30,489 bases of DNA, from IMG/VR virus record IMGVR_UViG_3300009425_000059, positions 1 to 30,489 of that record. One strand, written 5' to 3'. Both the position numbers and the translations under genes were made by a program. The stretch comes from a virus. A model generated the notes under the pieces. That model searched no databases. It was not told the origin of the DNA and saw nothing but the letters and a program-made list of their open reading frames with translations. This document shows, one piece after another, positions 4,174 to 25,369 of this stretch; within the stretch, counting starts at the first letter, position 1; each line of letters begins with the position of its first letter.

Positions 4174-4340
4174 TGCGCAAAGACAAATTAAAAGTTGGAC
4201 AATTTGATCACTACAAACGTTGGACGTCTAATGAAGGTTACACATTTTTAGCTAAAGATTTGGCTGATGCAGAACTATATCAAAAAAAGATGAATTTGGC
4301 TGGCAAGCTTTCGGAGGTAATAGTTGAAACAAATAATTAA
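4173..4340 (+). CDS. Small hypothetical protein (55 aa)
   Basis: ATG at 4173 overlaps the preceding stop (TAATG) and has AGGAG at 4161-4165. The product is soluble and charged ([18 protein letters not shown], then a helix [21 protein letters not shown]). It ends at TAA 4338-4340 and overlaps the start of the deformylase gene by 17 bases. The overlaps on both sides and the good ribosome-binding site argue that this short frame is a real gene. No family recognised. Confidence 0.6.
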
Positions 4341-4923
4341 TTGTCTCAAGCACAAAAATCCTGTTATAAAAAAGAAGCTTAAAGAAGTCACGCTTGAAGA
4401 AGGTGAAAAAATTGCAGCAGAATTATTTAACATTTTGGCAGAAAGAAAAGATGGTGTTGGGCTGGCTGCTAGTCAAGTTGGAATCGATGCTGCTGTTGCT
4501 GTGGTTAATGTTAGAGAACCAATTGCATTAATTAACCCTAAGGTTGTTAGTGTTGGCGATGAAGTAGCTTATTATGAAGGGTGCTTATCTTTCCCAGGCA
4601 AAGGTGTTAACACAACACGCTTTGAAACAGTTGAGATCACATCTGAAAATGTTGATGGCACCATGGTATTCAGCGGATGTGAAACACAAGGTGGTGACTC
4701 ATGGGGCACATGGGAAGCACAACATGACGCAAGTGATGATCGCGAAATGAGAATGTTAGAAGCAGTTGCTATTCAGCATGAGATCGATCACTTAAATGGT
4801 ATTGTTTGTATGGACAGAAGAATTGATGCGACAGTTAGAAGAACAGAGCCTAAGTTAGGACGTAATGATCCTTGTGAATGTGGCAGTGAAAAGAAATATA
4901 AGAAATGTTGTCTCAACAAATGA
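4324..4923 (+). CDS. def: Peptide deformylase with C-terminal SEC-C zinc motif
   Basis: Peptide deformylase removes the N-formyl group from new proteins at the ribosome exit. All three metal-site motifs are intact: motif 1 GVGLAASQ (44-51), motif 2 EGCLS (85-89, metal ligand Cys87) and motif 3 HEIDH (152-156). Between motifs 2 and 3 there is an acidic, Gly/Trp-containing stretch (about 115-145) longer than usual. Residues 179-196 are a SEC-C motif, [10 protein letters not shown] followed by KKCC (Cys184, Cys186, Cys195, Cys196), the zinc-binding element known from the SecA C-terminus. The start is TTG at 4324 behind GGAGG; no ATG lies before motif 1. Deformylases occur in cyanophages and vibriophages; the SEC-C fusion is the odd part. 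The 3' end overlaps the next gene as ATGA. Confidence 0.95.
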
Positions 4924-7061: not shown

Positions 7062-7158
7062 AAGATATGGGCCCGCTGGGTATCGACGGGTGTTTTTTGA
7101 CAATTGAGTGCAGCAGAGTTTGAACAAGACTCGAGACAAAAGGTTCACTAATCAATAT

Positions 7159-7272
7159 GGCGATAATTCGCTAGACGGGTTGGTAATAGATTGGCATTTA
7201 GCCGATACTGATTCAGCACCATTTATTGGGGCTGAGTCGGCTTACCAACCAACTTACGCCTTCGCGGCTTAA
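7159..7272 (+). other. Proposed tmRNA tag reading frame, 37 codons
   Basis: GGC at 7159 lies 11 bases after the end of PK1, the same spacing as in E. coli, with A at position -4. The frame is open for 37 codons to TAA 7270-7272. The peptide would start GDNSLDG and end AYQPTYAFAA; the final AA after an aromatic/hydrophobic run is the usual protease-recognition end. The other two frames stop within a few codons. A later resume codon (GCT 7231 or 7240) would give an ordinary 13- or 10-residue tag but is 83 or more bases from PK1. Confidence 0.6.
7178..7250 (+). repeat. Large hairpin inside the tmRNA tag region
   Basis: GGTTGGTAA (7178-7186) is perfectly complementary to TTACCAACC (7242-7250). 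Inside it, GCC (7201-7203) pairs with GGC (7239-7241) and GATTCAGC (7210-7217) with GCTGAGTC (7231-7238, one G-U). The 3' arm is therefore 20 contiguous paired bases, with bulges only on the 5' side. It lies wholly within the tag frame. Confidence 0.75.
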
Positions 7273-7565
7273 GTTATTGGGTTGTTCAACACCCGGTTAT
7301 AAAATAAGTTGAACACAAACTCGTTGGCCATTTTGGAGTATAACCAAAACCCAGTTAAAGGATACGTTCTGCAAAAGAAATCCACATGGTTGTTTGTTGG
7401 CTACTACCGATAGAAGCTAACTAAGCTGTAACGACTCATTGCTGATGGCAAACCGGACGGGAGTTCGAATCTCCCCGGGTCCACAAAAAAATGAAAATAA
7501 GTAAAAAAAAGCCTTTCATCGCATTAAAAAATGTTATAGATTCTATTAACAACAAGGAGTACGCC

Positions 7566-8081
7566 ATGTATAATCAAAACAAATATTTGGTTATGTTAGT
7601 ATTGATCACTATAATAAACGGTTATGTATCAACTAGCTTCATGAAACAGAACAAAGAGATATATCACAATCATTATGAAACTCTAGTTCATGAAAAACAG
7701 GATCTACAAAATCAACTAGACGAATTCTATCATCACGGAATTAAAGTTGATGTAACAATGTATCAACCAACACATTACCAAACAGACGACACACCAGACA
7801 TAACAGCAGATGGTACAAAAATTAGAATAGATAAGGCTTCTGAATATAAGTTCGTAGCTTTGTCTCGCAATTTACTGAAACGTTGGGGTGGACCTTTTGA
7901 TTACGGTGATTATATTTTACTTAAGGGTGCTAATACTAAAGACGGTGTCTACCAAGTTCGTGATACTATGAATGCGAAATGGGTTAATGTTGTAGATATA
8001 TTAGAATCAAAACATGTTCAGCCTTACAAATTTGAAGACTGTAACATTATTAAAATGCCATGGGCACAGGAGAATGCATGA
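7566..8081 (+). CDS. Membrane-anchored 3D-domain protein (MltA/RlpA-like barrel)
   Basis: The frame is open from ATG 7491, but ATG 7566 has a strong AAGGAG seven bases ahead and puts a signal-anchor helix at the very N-terminus (about 7-24, YLVMLVLITIINGYVSTS), so it is preferred; 171 residues. A short coiled coil follows, then a 3D domain at about 63-150 with the typical TDDTPDITADGTKI (73-86), VALSRNLL, YGDYILLKG, and the Asp-bearing DTM (133-135) and NVVDIL (141-146). The 3D domain is the double-psi-barrel catalytic part of MltA-type lytic transglycosylases. A role in cutting or remodelling peptidoglycan at the periplasmic face is inferred. Its stop overlaps the next ATG (ATGA). Confidence 0.85.
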   Translation: MYNQNKYLVMLVLITIINGYVSTSFMKQNKEIYHNHYETLVHEKQDLQNQLDEFYHHGIKVDVTMYQPTHYQTDDTPDITADGTKIRIDKASEYKFVALSRNLLKRWGGPFDYGDYILLKGANTKDGVYQVRDTMNAKWVNVVDILESKHVQPYKFEDCNIIKMPWAQENA

Positions 8082-8824
8082 GATTAACTGCAGAACAGAT
8101 TCAAGATAATTGGTCTGAGTTACATAAAATAATAGACAGTACTTTTGAGGGTGAACGTCTAGAAAAAATTAAATCCCTTCACAAACACTTTGAAGATAGA
8201 ATGATACTTGCACCTGCATCTGGCCGGGCATGGTATCACAATGCATTCCCAGGAGGCTATGTAGCACACATTCTTAATATAATACAGTGGTCACAAAGTT
8301 ACTATGCGCTATTCGAAGCACAGGGTATGCACGTTGATGATATACCAATGGAGTCCGTTGTATTTGCGGCTATGTTTCACGACTTAGGAAAGTTAGGTAA
8401 TTTAGAAGATGACTACTATGTTCCTAACACAGATGAATGGCGAGCAAAGAAATTACAGGAACATTACAATCATAATCCAGCAATTCATTATATGACTGTT
8501 ACAGACAGGGCAATATGGATATTGAACCAATTCAATATAACCATGTCAGAATCAGAATATCTAGGCGTAAGGTTAGCAGACGGTTTATACAATGAACAAA
8601 ATACTTCTTATTATATGGAAGGCGCAGAATGGAAAGCTATGAAGACAAACCTACCCTTGATAATTTCTTTTGCTGACAACACTGCAGCTAGACAAGAGAA
8701 AGAAGTGTTTATGCTATCAGGTGAGTCACGGATTGATTTCCCCAAGTACATGAAAGGTGAATCAAAAGAAGAAGAATTAGTAAAGAATTTAGATACTAGT
8801 AAACTAAAGGAGTTATTTAAATGA
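8078..8824 (+). CDS. HD-domain metal-dependent phosphohydrolase
   Basis: ATG 8078 overlaps the upstream stop (ATGA) and has AGGAG at 8068-8072, so it is preferred over the earlier ATG 8060; 248 residues. The HD signature is visible: His64 (GGYVAHILNII), His101-Asp102 (AMFHDLGKLGN) and a distal Asp200 (ISFADNTA). The PASGRAWYHNAFPGGYVAH segment resembles the HD core of YhaM-type 3'-5' exoribonucleases and related phage HD proteins. The substrate could be a nucleotide, cyclic nucleotide or RNA; the sequence does not decide. The stop overlaps the next ATG by four bases. Confidence 0.85.
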   Translation: MRLTAEQIQDNWSELHKIIDSTFEGERLEKIKSLHKHFEDRMILAPASGRAWYHNAFPGGYVAHILNIIQWSQSYYALFEAQGMHVDDIPMESVVFAAMFHDLGKLGNLEDDYYVPNTDEWRAKKLQEHYNHNPAIHYMTVTDRAIWILNQFNITMSESEYLGVRLADGLYNEQNTSYYMEGAEWKAMKTNLPLIISFADNTAARQEKEVFMLSGESRIDFPKYMKGESKEEELVKNLDTSKLKELFK

Positions 8825-17421: not shown

Positions 17422-17744
17422 TGCCGTATACAGAACAAGAATTAGAAGCAAATAGCCACTATCAATCGCTTAGGGCACGGGATGAAGTTATCTACGCTGA
17501 TAAGGTGAGTAAGGTACTGCAAAGATTTTTAGATAGAGAGTTAAAAAATTATTCTAGTGAGATTCAAACAAAAAAGCAATCATTGAGAGAGTTAGATGGC
17601 TCAATTAGGTTATTTGAAGATCCACAATCTGGAGAATCTTATACAGATCCAGCACAAAATTTAAATGTAGAAATTTATCAGAGAAGATACAGAACTAAAG
17701 ACAAAACATTTGACTATATAGATAGAGACTTTAAGGAGCTGTAA
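17421..17744 (+). CDS. Small helical structural-region protein (107 aa)
   Basis: TAATG overlaps at both ends place it in the same translation chain as gp6 and the giant protein. The N-terminal two thirds are charged helices (ALRARDEVIYADKVSKVLQ-like region and KVLQRFLDRELKNYSSEIQT), probably a coiled coil. The C-terminus is Tyr/Arg/Asp-rich (VEIYQRRYRTKDKTFDYIDR). Candidate assembly partner or small subunit of the adjacent giant protein. Not recognised. Confidence 0.65.
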   Translation: MPYTEQELEANSHYQSLRARDEVIYADKVSKVLQRFLDRELKNYSSEIQTKKQSLRELDGSIRLFEDPQSGESYTDPAQNLNVEIYQRRYRTKDKTFDYIDRDFKEL

Positions 17745-20700
17745 TGGCAGGCCAACAATCAAATCAACAATCAGATCCAGATCCAGCTGAAACGTTTCAC
17801 GCAACTCATCCAGATCAGACTCAGCCAAGAAAAGAGCCTACAAACCCAAAGAGCAGAAGGCTACAGATTCTACCTGATAAGATTGCCAAGTTTGTTGTGT
17901 TACCGGATACTAATGATTGGATACCGTTTAGAGACGCAAATTATTATGAGCAATTTTCAGGTGAAGCTTACCTATCACCTAAATGGCCTGACCAACACTA
18001 TGGTGCCAGTGCAGATGATTGTATCCGTGTTAATATTCACGGCGATGATGATTCGTTAATATTAACACATTACTTAGCTAACACTGAATTCAGCAGTGAC
18101 ATTGATGTTGATTTAGCTAATAAACCACATGTACAACTCGATCCCGGAAAGATTTTAAGAGATTTAGGCTTTAGAAGAGGAACTTTTCGATTAGTCTTTT
18201 CATTTTATCGACATATGTTTGGCAGTCCGTATCCGCTTTTAGTTAATGGCAGTGAAAAAATTTATAGTGGTGGGTATGAAGAATTTAAGTCAGAGATATA
18301 TGCAACAGATGAACATACTCCTTCAGAAACAGAGCTTGGTGCAAAATTATATGTAAAAGAAGACAAAGCAATTATTACAAGATTTAGTGCTGATAGAACT
18401 GAAATTATTTTGTCACCGAACTTTGTAAATGATGCAAGTTATTTAGAAAGATTTAGAACTGCAGCATACACATGTTTAAATGATTTTAACGAAGCAGGAC
18501 AAACAGCATCATTTCCAGGAGGACAAGATTCAAATTTGATCGCGCTAGCAGGATATGATAGTATACCAAGAAGCTTTATAAATGGAAAAATAAGAATTAA
18601 TGATACCTACTTTCTTGGTAAAAGAGTAATACCAGCACTAGAAGCTAGCTATGTCGTAGAGCCAACGTTAACAACACAAGTAAAAACAGTTAATCTATTA
18701 AGAGGACGTTATCTGGACAGTACTTTTAATTGGAAGACACATAGGGTGTATCCGGATTTGAATTCTGTCAATTCACTATCAGGTGCTAATCCTAATTTAA
18801 TGATAGCTGAAACTGTTGTTGAGGACACACCAGTAGGAAATCAGGCAGTAAAAGTTGCTTATCAAACAACAGAGGTAAATCAATCCACAACGACTGCTAA
18901 CAGGGCAATATTAATTAATCCTTACCTAAAAGTATATCGACCTGTTAATAATACAGAAATGTCATTTAGTGTTTATGCTAGAGGCGGCCCGGGAACAATC
19001 GGTTCATATTGGAGATTGCAGGCTCATGCAGGATCGTGGGGACCGGCTGATCATACAAAATATTCAGAAATGTTTGAAGTTACAGATGCCTGGCAAAGAA
19101 TATCATTTGCATTTGTATTAAGTGGTTTAAGTGAAACTAATGATATATTAACGTTAAGAATAGAACACTTTCCCAATGGAAAATATAATACAGAATCAGA
19201 TGATGTTATTGGCCTACACTTTTTCTACACAGGTGCACAATTAGAATTAGGCCACACTGTAACAGAATTTACAAGAAATGAAGATGAGACATCGAAAGAT
19301 GTTCAAGTGGCAGAAAAAGGAACAATTAGATTTGCTGATCCTGCACACTCTAATCACATAGAAAGAAAACGACTAATTGCTGATCTTAATGCCACTGATG
19401 ATCCTTTTACACAAAAGATGGTGGGAAATCAAATACTCATTAAAGATGCAATAACCATAGATGACTTGTCGTCATTCATATCAGTCGAAGAAACAGATCA
19501 TAAAGAAATTGTAAATTATGCAGGAAGCTTATCTGCAGATGCTGACTGGGCAATACCAGGGAGTTATCAACCGGTCAGAATGATGAACAGCATAGAAACA
19601 AAGTGGAATAATCAACTACATGGCAAGGCTATTATTGTTGCAGATCAGTATAGCAGACGAGCATTCTCATCCGGATTTAATACCTTTAATCCTTATGCAA
19701 AATGGAGTGAAACAGGGACATCTGGAATAGGTTATCATCCACATTGGATATATAATCCAGATGATGAAGCTGAAGTAGTAATGTACTTCCCAGATATAAA
19801 TTATATTCCTGAAATTCTGGAGGCAAGAAAAGCTAGAGCATTAGAAGTATGGAATGATCCTGATGTTGGATGGTATGCCAGCAAAGGACTGACTGACCCG
19901 CGGGTAGAAAACAACTATGTAAACCAACCTTGGTGGCAACATAGATATCAAGCCATTGGTATGGATGTGGGCGGACGTACAGGTCAATCTAATGCCATAG
20001 GCTCACTAGCTTCTTCTGGCGCAAAGCCAGGAGATACTGTAAGAATTAGCTGGACGCAAAAATCTATACCTGCAAATCCTACTTTTGATGACGGCGGTCG
20101 AAAAGGTGCACATGTGAAACTGCGCCATTATAGAGAAACATTATATACATCCCCCGGGCCACCAGACATTAATGCATCAGAAGTTAGACATGAAATGTTG
20201 AATATGATCCAAAATCCATGGGCTTTTTGGCAAGAAAGAGGAAGAGACACCGAAATTGCGAATATGATTATGGATAATGATTTTGTTGTCGCAAATGCTG
20301 AAAGACCTCAAGGCGCCAATGTGTGGGATCCTAACAATGATCTACGGGGATTGCAAACATATAAGCTGGTAAAGACTACTGTTCCAGACACAACTGAACC
20401 GCTTGGTGGCACACTAACAAAAGAAGTGGTATCACAGATTGACCTCGCAAACGCCATCAGCAATGATGGCGGAAGAGTAAATTTTATAGTTTTTGGTGGA
20501 GATAATGGCCACATCTATGAAGGAAATTTTTATAATGCAACTGATATGGATGGCATTCACTCGCTAGAACAAGCTGCCAACGGCAGAGGAAAATTAATTG
20601 CTGCTAGCTTCCTACCGACAGATGATATTGGTTCGGCTATGTATGATCAGTCATTTCCCTATTGGAATACACAAGCCACATTGCCAACAGGAGAAAAGCC

Positions 20701-23700
20701 TACGGTTACGTATAATATGAGTGTTGAAGAATCAGTCGCTTTTGGTTTAATAAGGATGCCAATAGGACACACCACAACTGACTGGGTATGGCATCAAGCG
20801 GAAGGAACGTATACTATTCAGAACATACATGTTCAAAATGGATGGGAGTATAATGATGCTACTGACACCTGGTTTGGCGGTGGCAGCCAAGCAGCAAACC
20901 CAGATGGGTTAATAATACCTGCACTCATTCAGATAGGCACAGAACAATATTTATGTGAAGCACTTGGCTGGATTTGGCAAGGTAACGGTTGGAGCTCAAT
21001 TGCAAAATTATTATTAGGTGATGTATTCTATAATAGCTATTCAGTAGCAGCATACATCGGCACTTACCCCATCGTAGATAATTGGACTAATGGTGATTAT
21101 ATAGTCCCAACAAACTCAGAACAAATTTATCCATCGTATGACTATGTTCATGAACTCAATGGATTGGATGAAAAGACAACATCGGTTGATGGCATGTTTA
21201 CTTGGCATGGAGTTAATGGGTGGGTAATCACTGAGGCAGCACTCGCTGAAAATGCTAATGGTGCTGATCCTGCCCAAGTAAATGCTGACGGAACTATTAC
21301 TCTTTCTTCCATGAAGTACACTGATCTGCTGACAACACTTCCGGATGGTAATGGTGCGTCCTGGGCGCGAGGTGATTTCCCTTGCTTTGAACTTAATGAA
21401 TGGGAAGAAACTAGTTTTGATTTTATAATACCAGAGGACGGAACATTCGGACTATATAACAATGTAGGCGTTTCATTTTTTGGGCATAGAATGGGTTTTG
21501 GTGAATTATGGGTAAAAGATGCCAGAGTTGATATCTTACTTACATCCAATCAAAGAATTAAAGTCGATCAAACAGCAAAGCTAGGGCCGCTACTTTTAAC
21601 AATTGATGAAGTATTATCAAATAATGAAATTGTCGTAACAGAAGAATATGATGATGCTGCAAACAACCAAGGGCGAGTTATTGCCAATATACCAGTTAAT
21701 AAATATACTACATTTGGCGCTGGGTTTGAAATCGGGTATACTGAAGCTGATGAAGAAGTTCAGATTGTTATGGCTCGTTATGAAGCCAAAATTTTAGATA
21801 TTGTTAACAATAGCTTTGGTAAGTGTTTAGTTGTCAATAAGACATTTAGAGAAGCCGCCGGCGGAGTAAATGCCATTAGCGGAAGTTCAGATTCCCCCAA
21901 CCCAGAAGATAATTTTGATCAATTCTTTGTTAGGCACAGACTTAAAGATTCAGATAATTTATTTACAAGAATAGTTTTTGGTTCTGAGGAAGAATCACTA
22001 GTTGTCAATTTTAAACCAGTAAATGTAACAAATTATCCAGGATCAATTGCATATAAATTATTATCTCCTGTGCCAGATAAGATACAGAAGTATGATACAG
22101 CGTATATAGTGACCGAGGTCACACCTGACCTTGAAGAGACAGTTACATTACTACCTTTTATAGATGAGCTTTTACCAGAGACAGTTTTAAGAGCACCAAA
22201 GCTTGATGAAGTTGAACCAGTAATCAACAAAAGAGAAACAGAGTATAGAAGTCATACAGACTTAGTTGGTGTAGAAACAGACACAAGAAAACAATTAGAA
22301 GATAAAATATTCAGCGGAAGCTTGCTAGACGTCAGTATTAATGTTGACTATACTAATTTTGAGAATTTTTCACATTTTGGCTCTGTATCGAAAAGAATAG
22401 AAAATTATAAAACTAAGCTGACAAATATAGAGTCACATGTTGCAAAAAGTCAGTCGTATGCAGCCATTGATGCATCATCAACTGATCGAGAACATTGGGA
22501 TATGAAGAAGCGTCAGGTTGTTAACGGTCTAGACGATTTTGAAAATTATATGTATTTCCAAAGTGCTTCTTATGTTTCAAGTTCTAATGGAATTGAATAT
22601 GACAACTCATCCCCAAAAAGATCTGGTGATGGAACATTAACTAATCCTTATGTTTTATATTCTGTTACTAGTTCTAATTTTATATCTTGGTATGACAGAG
22701 TTCACGCATCAGCATCAACTTATGATAATACAAATACAAATAGAATAGTCAATCTTACACCTGCGCATATTACATATGATGCCTCTAATGAGCCCTTCGT
22801 AAGATTTATGGACATGTTAGGGCATCACTACGATATTATATGGACACATATAAAACACATGACAGATGTCCATGATAGATCTGAAGATATAACAAAAGGC
22901 ATATCTGCACAGCTTGTTCAACCGATTGCAGAATCAATGGGATTTAAAATGCTTGAAGGCAGAGATCTTGCGAGGCTGCCACAATATCATCTTGGCCTCA
23001 ACGAATCAGGATCAGGCACAGGTGTTTTTAGCGTTCGATACACAAAAAAATCACAACAAGATGTTACAAGAGAAATATGGAATAGAATACTTTCAACAAT
23101 GCCCTATATTTTAAAAACAAAAGGAACAAAACAAAGTTTAAAAGCATTGATCGCAGCATACGGTATTCCAACATCTATACTAAGAATTCAAGAATACGGC
23201 GGTCCAAAAATTTCTGGCGGTTCACCTGAATTTGAATTAACACAAAAATATACATACGCATTGGACCTTAAAGGCTCACAAAATTTAGCATCACCGTGGT
23301 ATAAGATTAATGGTAAAGCAAATGATACAATAGAACTCAGATTCAAAACAGAAACTGAAAGAGACACTATGATTGCCACAAAGAATGATTCAAATAACAA
23401 AGTTGAATCAGCAATATACATTGAAGATGTTAGTGGATCAGATACAAAAGGTAAATTAGCATTTGCAATTTCATCTAGTGATGGTTTTGTTTCAGCTAGC
23501 CTACAACCATTACCTGTCTATAACGGTGAGTACTGGTCAGTTATGGTAAGACGTAGAAGCGGTGCATCGGATTTTAGTAGCAGCTATTCTGACATGTTTA
23601 TCACAGCTGACGAAAATCCTACAACACAAAGTTTTGACATATTTGCTGGATTTTATGATTCAACGACAGATGAAATAATTACAAAAGCATCTGCAAGTAT

Positions 23701-25369
23701 AAAACTCTCTGGTTCAAGTCAATTAGTTGCTTGGCATCAGACATCATCAATTGGTGATAATTACTGGCATATAGGCGGTAAAACACAAACGGCTGAAGAA
23801 GCAACATTATACGGATCAAAGTTAACTGGGTCATTGATGGAATGGCGGCATTGGAGCACACCGTTAACAGAATCAGCATTCTGGAATCATGTCCAAGCAC
23901 CAAAGGCACTCAATGGAAATCATGAGAGCTCATCATATTTTGATATGAATTTACGCTTTTCAATGGATGACAAAGCAAATTTATATTCTAGTCCAAATAT
24001 CGTAAAAGATTATTCACTAACAGGTGATCAAGTATACGCAACAGCATCCTCATTTCCAAATGAAATTAATTTTAGTTCTGTATCAGATAGACAAAAGGCG
24101 TTTATGCCAGCTGTTGGGCTTAACAAGACATCAAATAAAATTAGAATTGAAGGAAGAGCAAAAACTATTTATACAGATGGTACTGATCCTGTATTAAGCA
24201 CAACTGAAAGAATAGAACGAGGATCATATGATACTGCGCCACTTGACTCTAATAAGCTAGGTATATTCTTCGCGCCAAGTGATGTTATAAATGAAGATAT
24301 AATTTTATCATTAGCTGACTTAGATTTTGGTTCATACATGGGTGATCCAAGAGACACATACGCTGATAGATATGTTCACGGTAAACTTGATAGTATTGCT
24401 GACACATATTGGCAAAAGTGGACAACAAAATTTAATTTTTGGGATTATTTAAAACTCATTAAGTATTATGATTTAAGTTTATTTGATCACTTGCGTCGTT
24501 TATCACCTGCAAGAGCGAAGAAAAATATTGGTATATTAATAGAACCAACTATTTTAGAAAGACCCAAAGCAGTTGTTGGCAAAAAACCATTAGTAGAAGA
24601 TTTATTAAAAGAAGTCGCACTAACTGCTACAGCACAATACAGTCAAAGCGCAGAATCAATATGGAAAGAAGATGCCATACAATATTTATACAATTTATAT
24701 CCAACATCTTCTAATGTAACATACACTGCAAACGTGTCCGGATCAGATTCTAGAAAAGATAATCGTAATGTAGAATCTTCAAATTTATTGCACCGGACTG
24801 GTATTACTGATATGCTGGGCACTAGAAAATTTTCTGGCTCTAGAGAGGACTATTCAAAAGCGTTTAGCTGGTCATTTGATGATTCAATATCGGTAAAATC
24901 AGGAAGGCATGATTATAAAACAGTATCATCATCAACAATTCCACTTCGCGCTCAAATACGCTCATTTTCGTATGATAATTTACTTGATCCAGAAGACAAC
25001 GATTACGTAGATAATTGCAATGTGTACACTGGCGGTGGAAGCAATATATTCTTTGAAACCCTACAGCCCATGGCGACTGGCTCTATAACATCACTATTTA
25101 ATGATAAGAGTATCTATCATTATAGCTCATCTGTTAGTAAATCACAAGGATTATGGTATTCAGCATCATTAGAAAAATCAAATACTGATTCACTATTTAC
25201 AACACACACTGGCCTATTTAATTTAGCGTATGGTGGCTGTAGTGAAGATGGGTCAACTGTTCCGGAAGGAAATCAAGTTGCTGTTGAAATAACTGAGGTT
25301 AATCCATACATGGTAACAACAATTTCATCTGGAGATACACTCGTGGATGTACAACTAGATCAAGAATAG
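17744..25369 (+). CDS. Giant baseplate/tail protein (2541 aa), possible gp7-position wedge
   Basis: The largest gene of the window. Residues 1-45 are a Gln/Pro/Asp-rich flexible start. About 316-512 resemble a sugar-binding jelly roll as found in phage tails (MSFSVYARGGPG, LRIEHFPNGKYN, then TGAQLELGHTVTEF). About 620-1270 are unusually rich in Trp, Gly and Asn. About 1684-1830 are the most family-like part: VRFMDMLGHHYDIIWTHIKH, REIWNRILSTMPYILKTKGT, LKALIAAYGIPTSILRIQEYGG, a pattern I recall in long baseplate proteins of marine T4-like phages. About 1840-2050 look like a LamG/concanavalin-type sandwich (DTIELRFKTE, YWSVMVRRRSG, WHIGGK). The end is beta-rich. Its position after gp6 matches gp7 in T4 (1032 residues), but it is far longer, so it may combine wedge and host-contact functions. 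Confidence 0.75.
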   Translation: MAGQQSNQQSDPDPAETFHATHPDQTQPRKEPTNPKSRRLQILPDKIAKFVVLPDTNDWIPFRDANYYEQFSGEAYLSPKWPDQHYGASADDCIRVNIHGDDDSLILTHYLANTEFSSDIDVDLANKPHVQLDPGKILRDLGFRRGTFRLVFSFYRHMFGSPYPLLVNGSEKIYSGGYEEFKSEIYATDEHTPSETELGAKLYVKEDKAIITRFSADRTEIILSPNFVNDASYLERFRTAAYTCLNDFNEAGQTASFPGGQDSNLIALAGYDSIPRSFINGKIRINDTYFLGKRVIPALEASYVVEPTLTTQVKTVNLLRGRYLDSTFNWKTHRVYPDLNSVNSLSGANPNLMIAETVVEDTPVGNQAVKVAYQTTEVNQSTTTANRAILINPYLKVYRPVNNTEMSFSVYARGGPGTIGSYWRLQAHAGSWGPADHTKYSEMFEVTDAWQRISFAFVLSGLSETNDILTLRIEHFPNGKYNTESDDVIGLHFFYTGAQLELGHTVTEFTRNEDETSKDVQVAEKGTIRFADPAHSNHIERKRLIADLNATDDPFTQKMVGNQILIKDAITIDDLSSFISVEETDHKEIVNYAGSLSADADWAIPGSYQPVRMMNSIETKWNNQLHGKAIIVADQYSRRAFSSGFNTFNPYAKWSETGTSGIGYHPHWIYNPDDEAEVVMYFPDINYIPEILEARKARALEVWNDPDVGWYASKGLTDPRVENNYVNQPWWQHRYQAIGMDVGGRTGQSNAIGSLASSGAKPGDTVRISWTQKSIPANPTFDDGGRKGAHVKLRHYRETLYTSPGPPDINASEVRHEMLNMIQNPWAFWQERGRDTEIANMIMDNDFVVANAERPQGANVWDPNNDLRGLQTYKLVKTTVPDTTEPLGGTLTKEVVSQIDLANAISNDGGRVNFIVFGGDNGHIYEGNFYNATDMDGIHSLEQAANGRGKLIAASFLPTDDIGSAMYDQSFPYWNTQATLPTGEKPTVTYNMSVEESVAFGLIRMPIGHTTTDWVWHQAEGTYTIQNIHVQNGWEYNDATDTWFGGGSQAANPDGLIIPALIQIGTEQYLCEALGWIWQGNGWSSIAKLLLGDVFYNSYSVAAYIGTYPIVDNWTNGDYIVPTNSEQIYPSYDYVHELNGLDEKTTSVDGMFTWHGVNGWVITEAALAENANGADPAQVNADGTITLSSMKYTDLLTTLPDGNGASWARGDFPCFELNEWEETSFDFIIPEDGTFGLYNNVGVSFFGHRMGFGELWVKDARVDILLTSNQRIKVDQTAKLGPLLLTIDEVLSNNEIVVTEEYDDAANNQGRVIANIPVNKYTTFGAGFEIGYTEADEEVQIVMARYEAKILDIVNNSFGKCLVVNKTFREAAGGVNAISGSSDSPNPEDNFDQFFVRHRLKDSDNLFTRIVFGSEEESLVVNFKPVNVTNYPGSIAYKLLSPVPDKIQKYDTAYIVTEVTPDLEETVTLLPFIDELLPETVLRAPKLDEVEPVINKRETEYRSHTDLVGVETDTRKQLEDKIFSGSLLDVSINVDYTNFENFSHFGSVSKRIENYKTKLTNIESHVAKSQSYAAIDASSTDREHWDMKKRQVVNGLDDFENYMYFQSASYVSSSNGIEYDNSSPKRSGDGTLTNPYVLYSVTSSNFISWYDRVHASASTYDNTNTNRIVNLTPAHITYDASNEPFVRFMDMLGHHYDIIWTHIKHMTDVHDRSEDITKGISAQLVQPIAESMGFKMLEGRDLARLPQYHLGLNESGSGTGVFSVRYTKKSQQDVTREIWNRILSTMPYILKTKGTKQSLKALIAAYGIPTSILRIQEYGGPKISGGSPEFELTQKYTYALDLKGSQNLASPWYKINGKANDTIELRFKTETERDTMIATKNDSNNKVESAIYIEDVSGSDTKGKLAFAISSSDGFVSASLQPLPVYNGEYWSVMVRRRSGASDFSSSYSDMFITADENPTTQSFDIFAGFYDSTTDEIITKASASIKLSGSSQLVAWHQTSSIGDNYWHIGGKTQTAEEATLYGSKLTGSLMEWRHWSTPLTESAFWNHVQAPKALNGNHESSSYFDMNLRFSMDDKANLYSSPNIVKDYSLTGDQVYATASSFPNEINFSSVSDRQKAFMPAVGLNKTSNKIRIEGRAKTIYTDGTDPVLSTTERIERGSYDTAPLDSNKLGIFFAPSDVINEDIILSLADLDFGSYMGDPRDTYADRYVHGKLDSIADTYWQKWTTKFNFWDYLKLIKYYDLSLFDHLRRLSPARAKKNIGILIEPTILERPKAVVGKKPLVEDLLKEVALTATAQYSQSAESIWKEDAIQYLYNLYPTSSNVTYTANVSGSDSRKDNRNVESSNLLHRTGITDMLGTRKFSGSREDYSKAFSWSFDDSISVKSGRHDYKTVSSSTIPLRAQIRSFSYDNLLDPEDNDYVDNCNVYTGGGSNIFFETLQPMATGSITSLFNDKSIYHYSSSVSKSQGLWYSASLEKSNTDSLFTTHTGLFNLAYGGCSEDGSTVPEGNQVAVEITEVNPYMVTTISSGDTLVDVQLDQE

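Follow-up and report, generated by a model that had tools for sequence, protein, structure and literature searches.

The peptide tags encoded by tmRNAs are usually seen as short degradation signals. Mycoplasma tags are long, at roughly 25–35 residues, and are read by Lon in Mesoplasma. Hairpin-closed inserts inside a reading frame are found in the bypass of T4 gene 60 and in the mitochondrial byp elements. The G3–U70 pair of the acceptor stem is used by alanyl-tRNA synthetase. Published tag lengths span 8–35 residues (PMC8012679), and the mode has been placed at 10 residues, with extremes down to 2 (PMC11915505). Phage-encoded tmRNAs are already known (PMC4131195; PMC9004378), and Melnitz, together with many marine phages, carries a permuted two-piece tmRNA (PMC9004378). 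No report of the long-tag phage tmRNA family described here was found in the open-access papers searched.

The window, a virus record of 30,489 bases (IMGVR_UViG_3300009425_000059), encodes a one-piece tmRNA which, as judged from its sequence, is of a novel form, in that its two-part tag is long, acidic, and conserved (Table 1). ARAGORN and Rfam both call a single tmRNA, at 7069–7484 and 7069–7486, respectively, with a score against RF00023 of 70.1 bits (gathering threshold, 47) and model positions 1–374 covered in full; this collinear match rules out a permuted two-piece gene. The G3–U70 alanine identity pair can be read from the sequence of the acceptor stem (GGGCCCG with CGGGTCC), and PK1 is kept in the tmRNAs of the relatives.

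Table 1. Positions in the window of the phage tmRNA gene, its predicted tag reading frame, and the helices that overlie the frame.
Feature	Positions	Strand	Details and basis
One-piece phage tmRNA gene	7069–7484	+	416 nt; ARAGORN; Rfam match extends to 7486
Acceptor stem, 5' strand GGGCCCG	7069–7075	+	Pairs with CGGGTCC 7476–7482; sequence
Pseudoknot PK1	7116–7147	+	GAGT/ACTC, 7116–7119 with 7129–7132; TGAAC/GTTCA, 7121–7125 with 7143–7147
11-nt spacer, PK1 to resume codon	7148–7158	+	Also 11 nt in the sisters L304 and L367, which have short tags
Predicted resume codon GGC (Gly)	7159–7161	+	Sister tmRNAs, spacing
Tag reading frame, 37 codons and TAA	7159–7272	+	GDNSLDGLVIDWHLADTDSAPFIGAESAYQPTYAFAA; conserved in relatives
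Hairpin A, at the resume codon	7159–7172	+	GGCGA/TCGCT; covaries
Approximate inserted module, 28 codons	7168–7251	+	Between GDN and TYAFAA; by comparison with L304, L367 and cellular tags; boundaries approximate
Best-conserved peptide block GLVIDWHLA	7177–7203	+	pN/pS 0.14 over codons 7–14
Helix B, closes the insert	7178–7250	+	GGTTGGTAA 7178–7186 pairs with TTACCAACC 7242–7250
Small hairpin	7191–7205	+	TTGGC-ATTTA-GCCGA
Hairpin C, in the place of helix 5	7251–7275	+	AACTTACGCC/GGCTTAAGTT; contains the YAFAA end and the stop codon
PK2 segment	7284–7314	+	Served as a search handle independent of the tag

Several other genes of the window encode recognizable products. An Hsp20 small heat-shock protein (1611–2087, +) and a peptide deformylase whose C terminus carries a SEC-C metal-binding motif (4324–4923, +) make up, with the tmRNA, three protein-quality-control genes within 6 kb; the deformylase/SEC-C combination could, on its sequence, be targeted to ribosomes or SecB. 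The product of 8060–8821 (+) resembles PHROG metal-dependent phosphohydrolases, and many members of the family keep this gene close to the tmRNA. A very large ORF (17744–25369, +; 2541 aa) lies downstream of the baseplate genes, and the first 552 residues of its product matched no Pfam family.

The codon at which translation would resume can be assigned by homology. GGC 7159 is nucleotide 91 of the tmRNA and lies 11 nt past the 3' strand of PK1 (GTTCA, 7143–7147), with an A at −4 (7155) that is also present in 96 of 101 relatives. The sister phage tmRNAs L304 and L367 have the same PK1 and 11-nt spacer, followed by ordinary tags of 9 residues that start with GGC AAT (GNTANFAYA and GNQVNFAYA); a more distant phage tmRNA, L041, bears the tag GNEYQYMAVA. 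By this homology, GGC 7159 is the predicted resume site, and the exact position of the first codon rests on the spacing and the sister tmRNAs, because codons 1–6 carry no coding signal (pN/pS 1.05), the hairpin there fixing their third positions. The earlier note had recognized a tmRNA with a G3–U acceptor stem, PK1, and PK2, and had placed its resume codon at GGC 7159, 11 nt after PK1; the gene proves to be real, with ARAGORN calling it and the covariance model (Rfam RF00023) matching it above the curated cut-off, and the short-tag sisters resume at the matching GGC.

From this codon, the sense codons span 7159–7269 and are followed by TAA at 7270–7272, so the encoded peptide ends in YAFAA. 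A single frame of 37 codons is weak evidence by itself, since approximately 15% of composition shuffles also yield one; a chance open frame is rejected because all 101 distinct homologous tag regions keep the frame. Among the loci fetched by the neighbour gene at 8060–8821, for which the tag was not consulted, many contain tmRNA homologs, and the long frame is present in all aligned homologs except the distant L041 (examples are GDNSLDGLVIDWHMAEYDVPANVSTAPVLDTGLAYQPTYSYAA and GEVSLQGLEIDWHLAEYDFPSTVHVAGVSQPTFAYA). Further relatives were obtained from IMG/VR through tag-pattern and peptide searches, plus two scans outside the tag (PK2 and helix 2). The 101 distinct tag regions from IMG/VR include 100 with 34–43 codons, the true length being one more than counted in L144, L267, L281, L291, and L294, which have an extra codon before GL. 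The exception, L108, has 49 codons: it lacks the stop that normally follows YAYA, and its frame continues as QVSELSNTRT. All 101 tags stop at TAA or TAG and stay in frame as far as an end of the Y-A type (AYAA in 39, YAYA in 37, and a few others), and the differences in length are therefore whole codons; at the positions matching 7159–7231, neither a stop nor a frameshift was found in any homolog.

At least one neighbour gene is common to 85 of the 101 loci within the fetched flanks, and the identities of the neighbour proteins fall to ~31–44%, which argues that the tag is old. In L003–L011, L015–L018, and L032, which are close by the 8060–8821 gene, no tmRNA homolog was found in the fetched flank (some flanks are short); many phages of this group thus have the tmRNA, but probably not all of them do. 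A search for related loci using the 414-aa protein returned none.

The tags have net charges of −3 to −9, and 71 of the 101 are without K or R. The earlier note had described the frame as open for 37 codons with a YAFAA-stop end, as acidic, and as at or beyond the long end of known tag lengths, and each part of this description agrees with the comparison, the 37 encoded residues lying just past the published range of 8–35. The note also suggested that such a tag could alter protease choice or be a functional peptide; what the sequences show of it is its acidity and a conserved internal motif.

Constraint on the encoded peptide was assessed by pN/pS, as pooled pairwise counts over related sequences with no use of a tree. 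As tag-pattern searches select for the motif, the test was redone on 84 tag-independent sequences, which PK2, helix 2, or the neighbour gene had picked out, and the outcome was the same. Over codons 7–14 of this subset, pS is 0.433 and pN is 0.061 (ratio 0.14), whereas the two shifted frames give 0.60 and 1.02; the QPTYA block gives 0.34 in frame and 1.79 and 1.60 in the shifted frames. The earlier note had named synonymous changes across a conserved frame as support for it, and the changes upstream of the alternative starts are mostly synonymous. Since codons 7–14 lie upstream of all the proposed alternative starts, translation must begin before them, and these comparisons give strong support to translation of the frame over its whole length.

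The same stretch of RNA is predicted to fold into hairpin A, helix B, the small hairpin, and hairpin C. In 30 diverse sequences, 93.7% of the cells in these four helices are paired, and the helices contain 33 double changes compared with 8.7 in shuffles (0 of 500 shuffles matched), a covariation signal that is lost when the helix partners are slid. This covariation, and the tracking of the hairpin rather than of protein by codons 1–6, would be expected if the insert were kept mainly for RNA structure that shields the tag or sets its timing, and were translated into a peptide of no importance. Such an explanation is unlikely, however, as changes at the unpaired bases in the loop of the small hairpin stay within codon degeneracy (His CAT/CAC; Leu TTA/CTA/TTG), GL-x-IDWH is retained in the 3 of 30 aligned sequences in which the small hairpin is weakened by loss of the pair at columns 53–63, and pN/pS is low in codons 7–14. 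The covarying helices and the coding constraint together argue that RNA and peptide are both constrained, and the two kinds of constraint can coexist.

A downstream start, at the 7204 of ARAGORN or at GCT 7231 or 7240, would give a tag of 10–22 residues and make the upstream part an RNA spacer. ARAGORN does report a 22-residue tag (DTDSAP...) from 7204, and ordinary-looking 11-residue tags in L019, L033, L084, L219, and L271, all of the long-tag family (e.g., GNDQPTYAYAA among the relatives). However, the start that it chooses shifts among relatives from 136 to 171 within the gene, the frame upstream of these starts is conserved as protein, and in the short-tag sisters the resume codon is the GGC close to PK1, making a downstream start highly improbable; the call at 7204 is a mis-call, given the coding constraint on codons 7–14. 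As standard software reports wrong but ordinary-looking tags for members of the family, surveys relying on ARAGORN would miss the long tags, and long tags may have gone unnoticed elsewhere. It is scarcely credible that the insert is skipped, by a ribosome hop over helix B or by excision, to give GDN-TYAFAA: the insert does lie between the halves of a host-like tag and has its ends paired by helix B, but nothing would oblige a segment that is skipped to remain open or to vary by whole codons, as this one does in 101 sequences, and the protein-like substitution within it leads to the rejection of both routes on coding constraint.

Because the short-tag sisters share PK1, the spacing, and GGC, the long tag resembles a short tag with ~28 additional codons, and short cellular tags such as ADNYAYAA suggest that a normal tag of the form GDN...YAYAA has been split by this insertion. 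One match was found in 84,980 species genomes, on a small contig of the metagenomic bin of bacterium TMED198, where the genes nearby and a cluster of tRNAs have a viral appearance. The tmRNA of this bin itself encodes ADYGYAAAA, and other cellular tags in its phylum are ADNYAYAA, ADNFAYAA, and ANNYAYAA; their likeness to the phage tag, GDN...YAYAA, is no more than a hint about the host. A Bacteroidota host, considered by likeness to tags of the GENNYALAA type, is not decisively indicated, as GESNYALAA and ADNYAYAA both occur in one phylum. The tag had no match in the 50,697 phage records searched, in which no isolate phage carries it and the tmRNA matched only short chance or tRNA-domain stretches, and no second copy of the tag was found elsewhere in the 12 records searched. 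A Pfam search of the tag peptide gave a best match of E = 0.18 and no family, and an AlphaFold model was without secondary structure and of low confidence (pLDDT 62); with neither a family match nor a confident fold, the tag points to no particular partner. The controls of a PF05367 search gave no match.

The reading favoured here, with a probability of roughly 0.88, is that of a one-piece phage tmRNA that resumes at GGC 7159 and adds a 37-codon two-part tag, with YAFAA as the likely degradation signal and an insert that may alter delivery. The phage tmRNA would free stalled ribosomes with SmpB from elsewhere, most likely from the host; SmpB was not found in 13 phage contigs (up to 216 kb), whose fragmentary state makes this absence weak. 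Alanine would pass from the charged tmRNA, and translation would restart at GGC 7159 and read 37 codons before it stops at TAA 7270; the stalled protein would in this way gain Ala and 37 residues. This tag would consist of an ordinary-looking part, GDN...TYAFAA, and an acidic insert of ~28 codons, mostly without Lys or Arg, bearing the conserved motif GL-x-IDWHLA. The YAFAA/YAYAA end is most likely still a degradation signal for host ClpXP-type proteases, and the insert may alter the delivery of tagged proteins by serving as a further binding site or as a flexible handle. A more specific proposal, that the GL-x-IDWHLA module is a functional peptide that docks tagged proteins on a specific partner, such as an adaptor of a protease or a protein of the phage, for phage-controlled sorting or host takeover, is possible and is offered tentatively. 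The retention of a 34–43-residue tag while the neighbour proteins diverged argues for an added function of trans-translation in infection; many IMG/VR phages bear such a tmRNA, which may redirect the fate of unfinished proteins in infected cells.

The phage tmRNA shares with bacterial ssrA (RF00023) the tRNA-like domain with G3–U70, PK1, PK2, the A at −4, a stop codon in a hairpin, and a Y-A-type C-terminus, and differs from it in a tag of ~34–43 codons, a conserved acidic internal motif, and extra covarying helices in the frame. Mycobacteriophages Bxz1 and Wildcat, Bacillus phage G, and marine phage Melnitz likewise carry a complete tmRNA on the phage genome; in contrast to the permuted two-piece form of Melnitz, the tmRNA at 7069–7484 is one-piece. 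In the mycoplasmas, too, a tmRNA that is otherwise normal encodes a long tag; these tags are not known to resemble the phage tag in sequence, and they provide a precedent for a changed choice of protease. A translational bypass element is ruled out, as the frame is open and constrained inside the insert in 101 sequences; unlike the hairpin-closed inserts of T4 gene 60 and the byp elements, the insert of the phage tag keeps the reading frame and is constrained as coding sequence.
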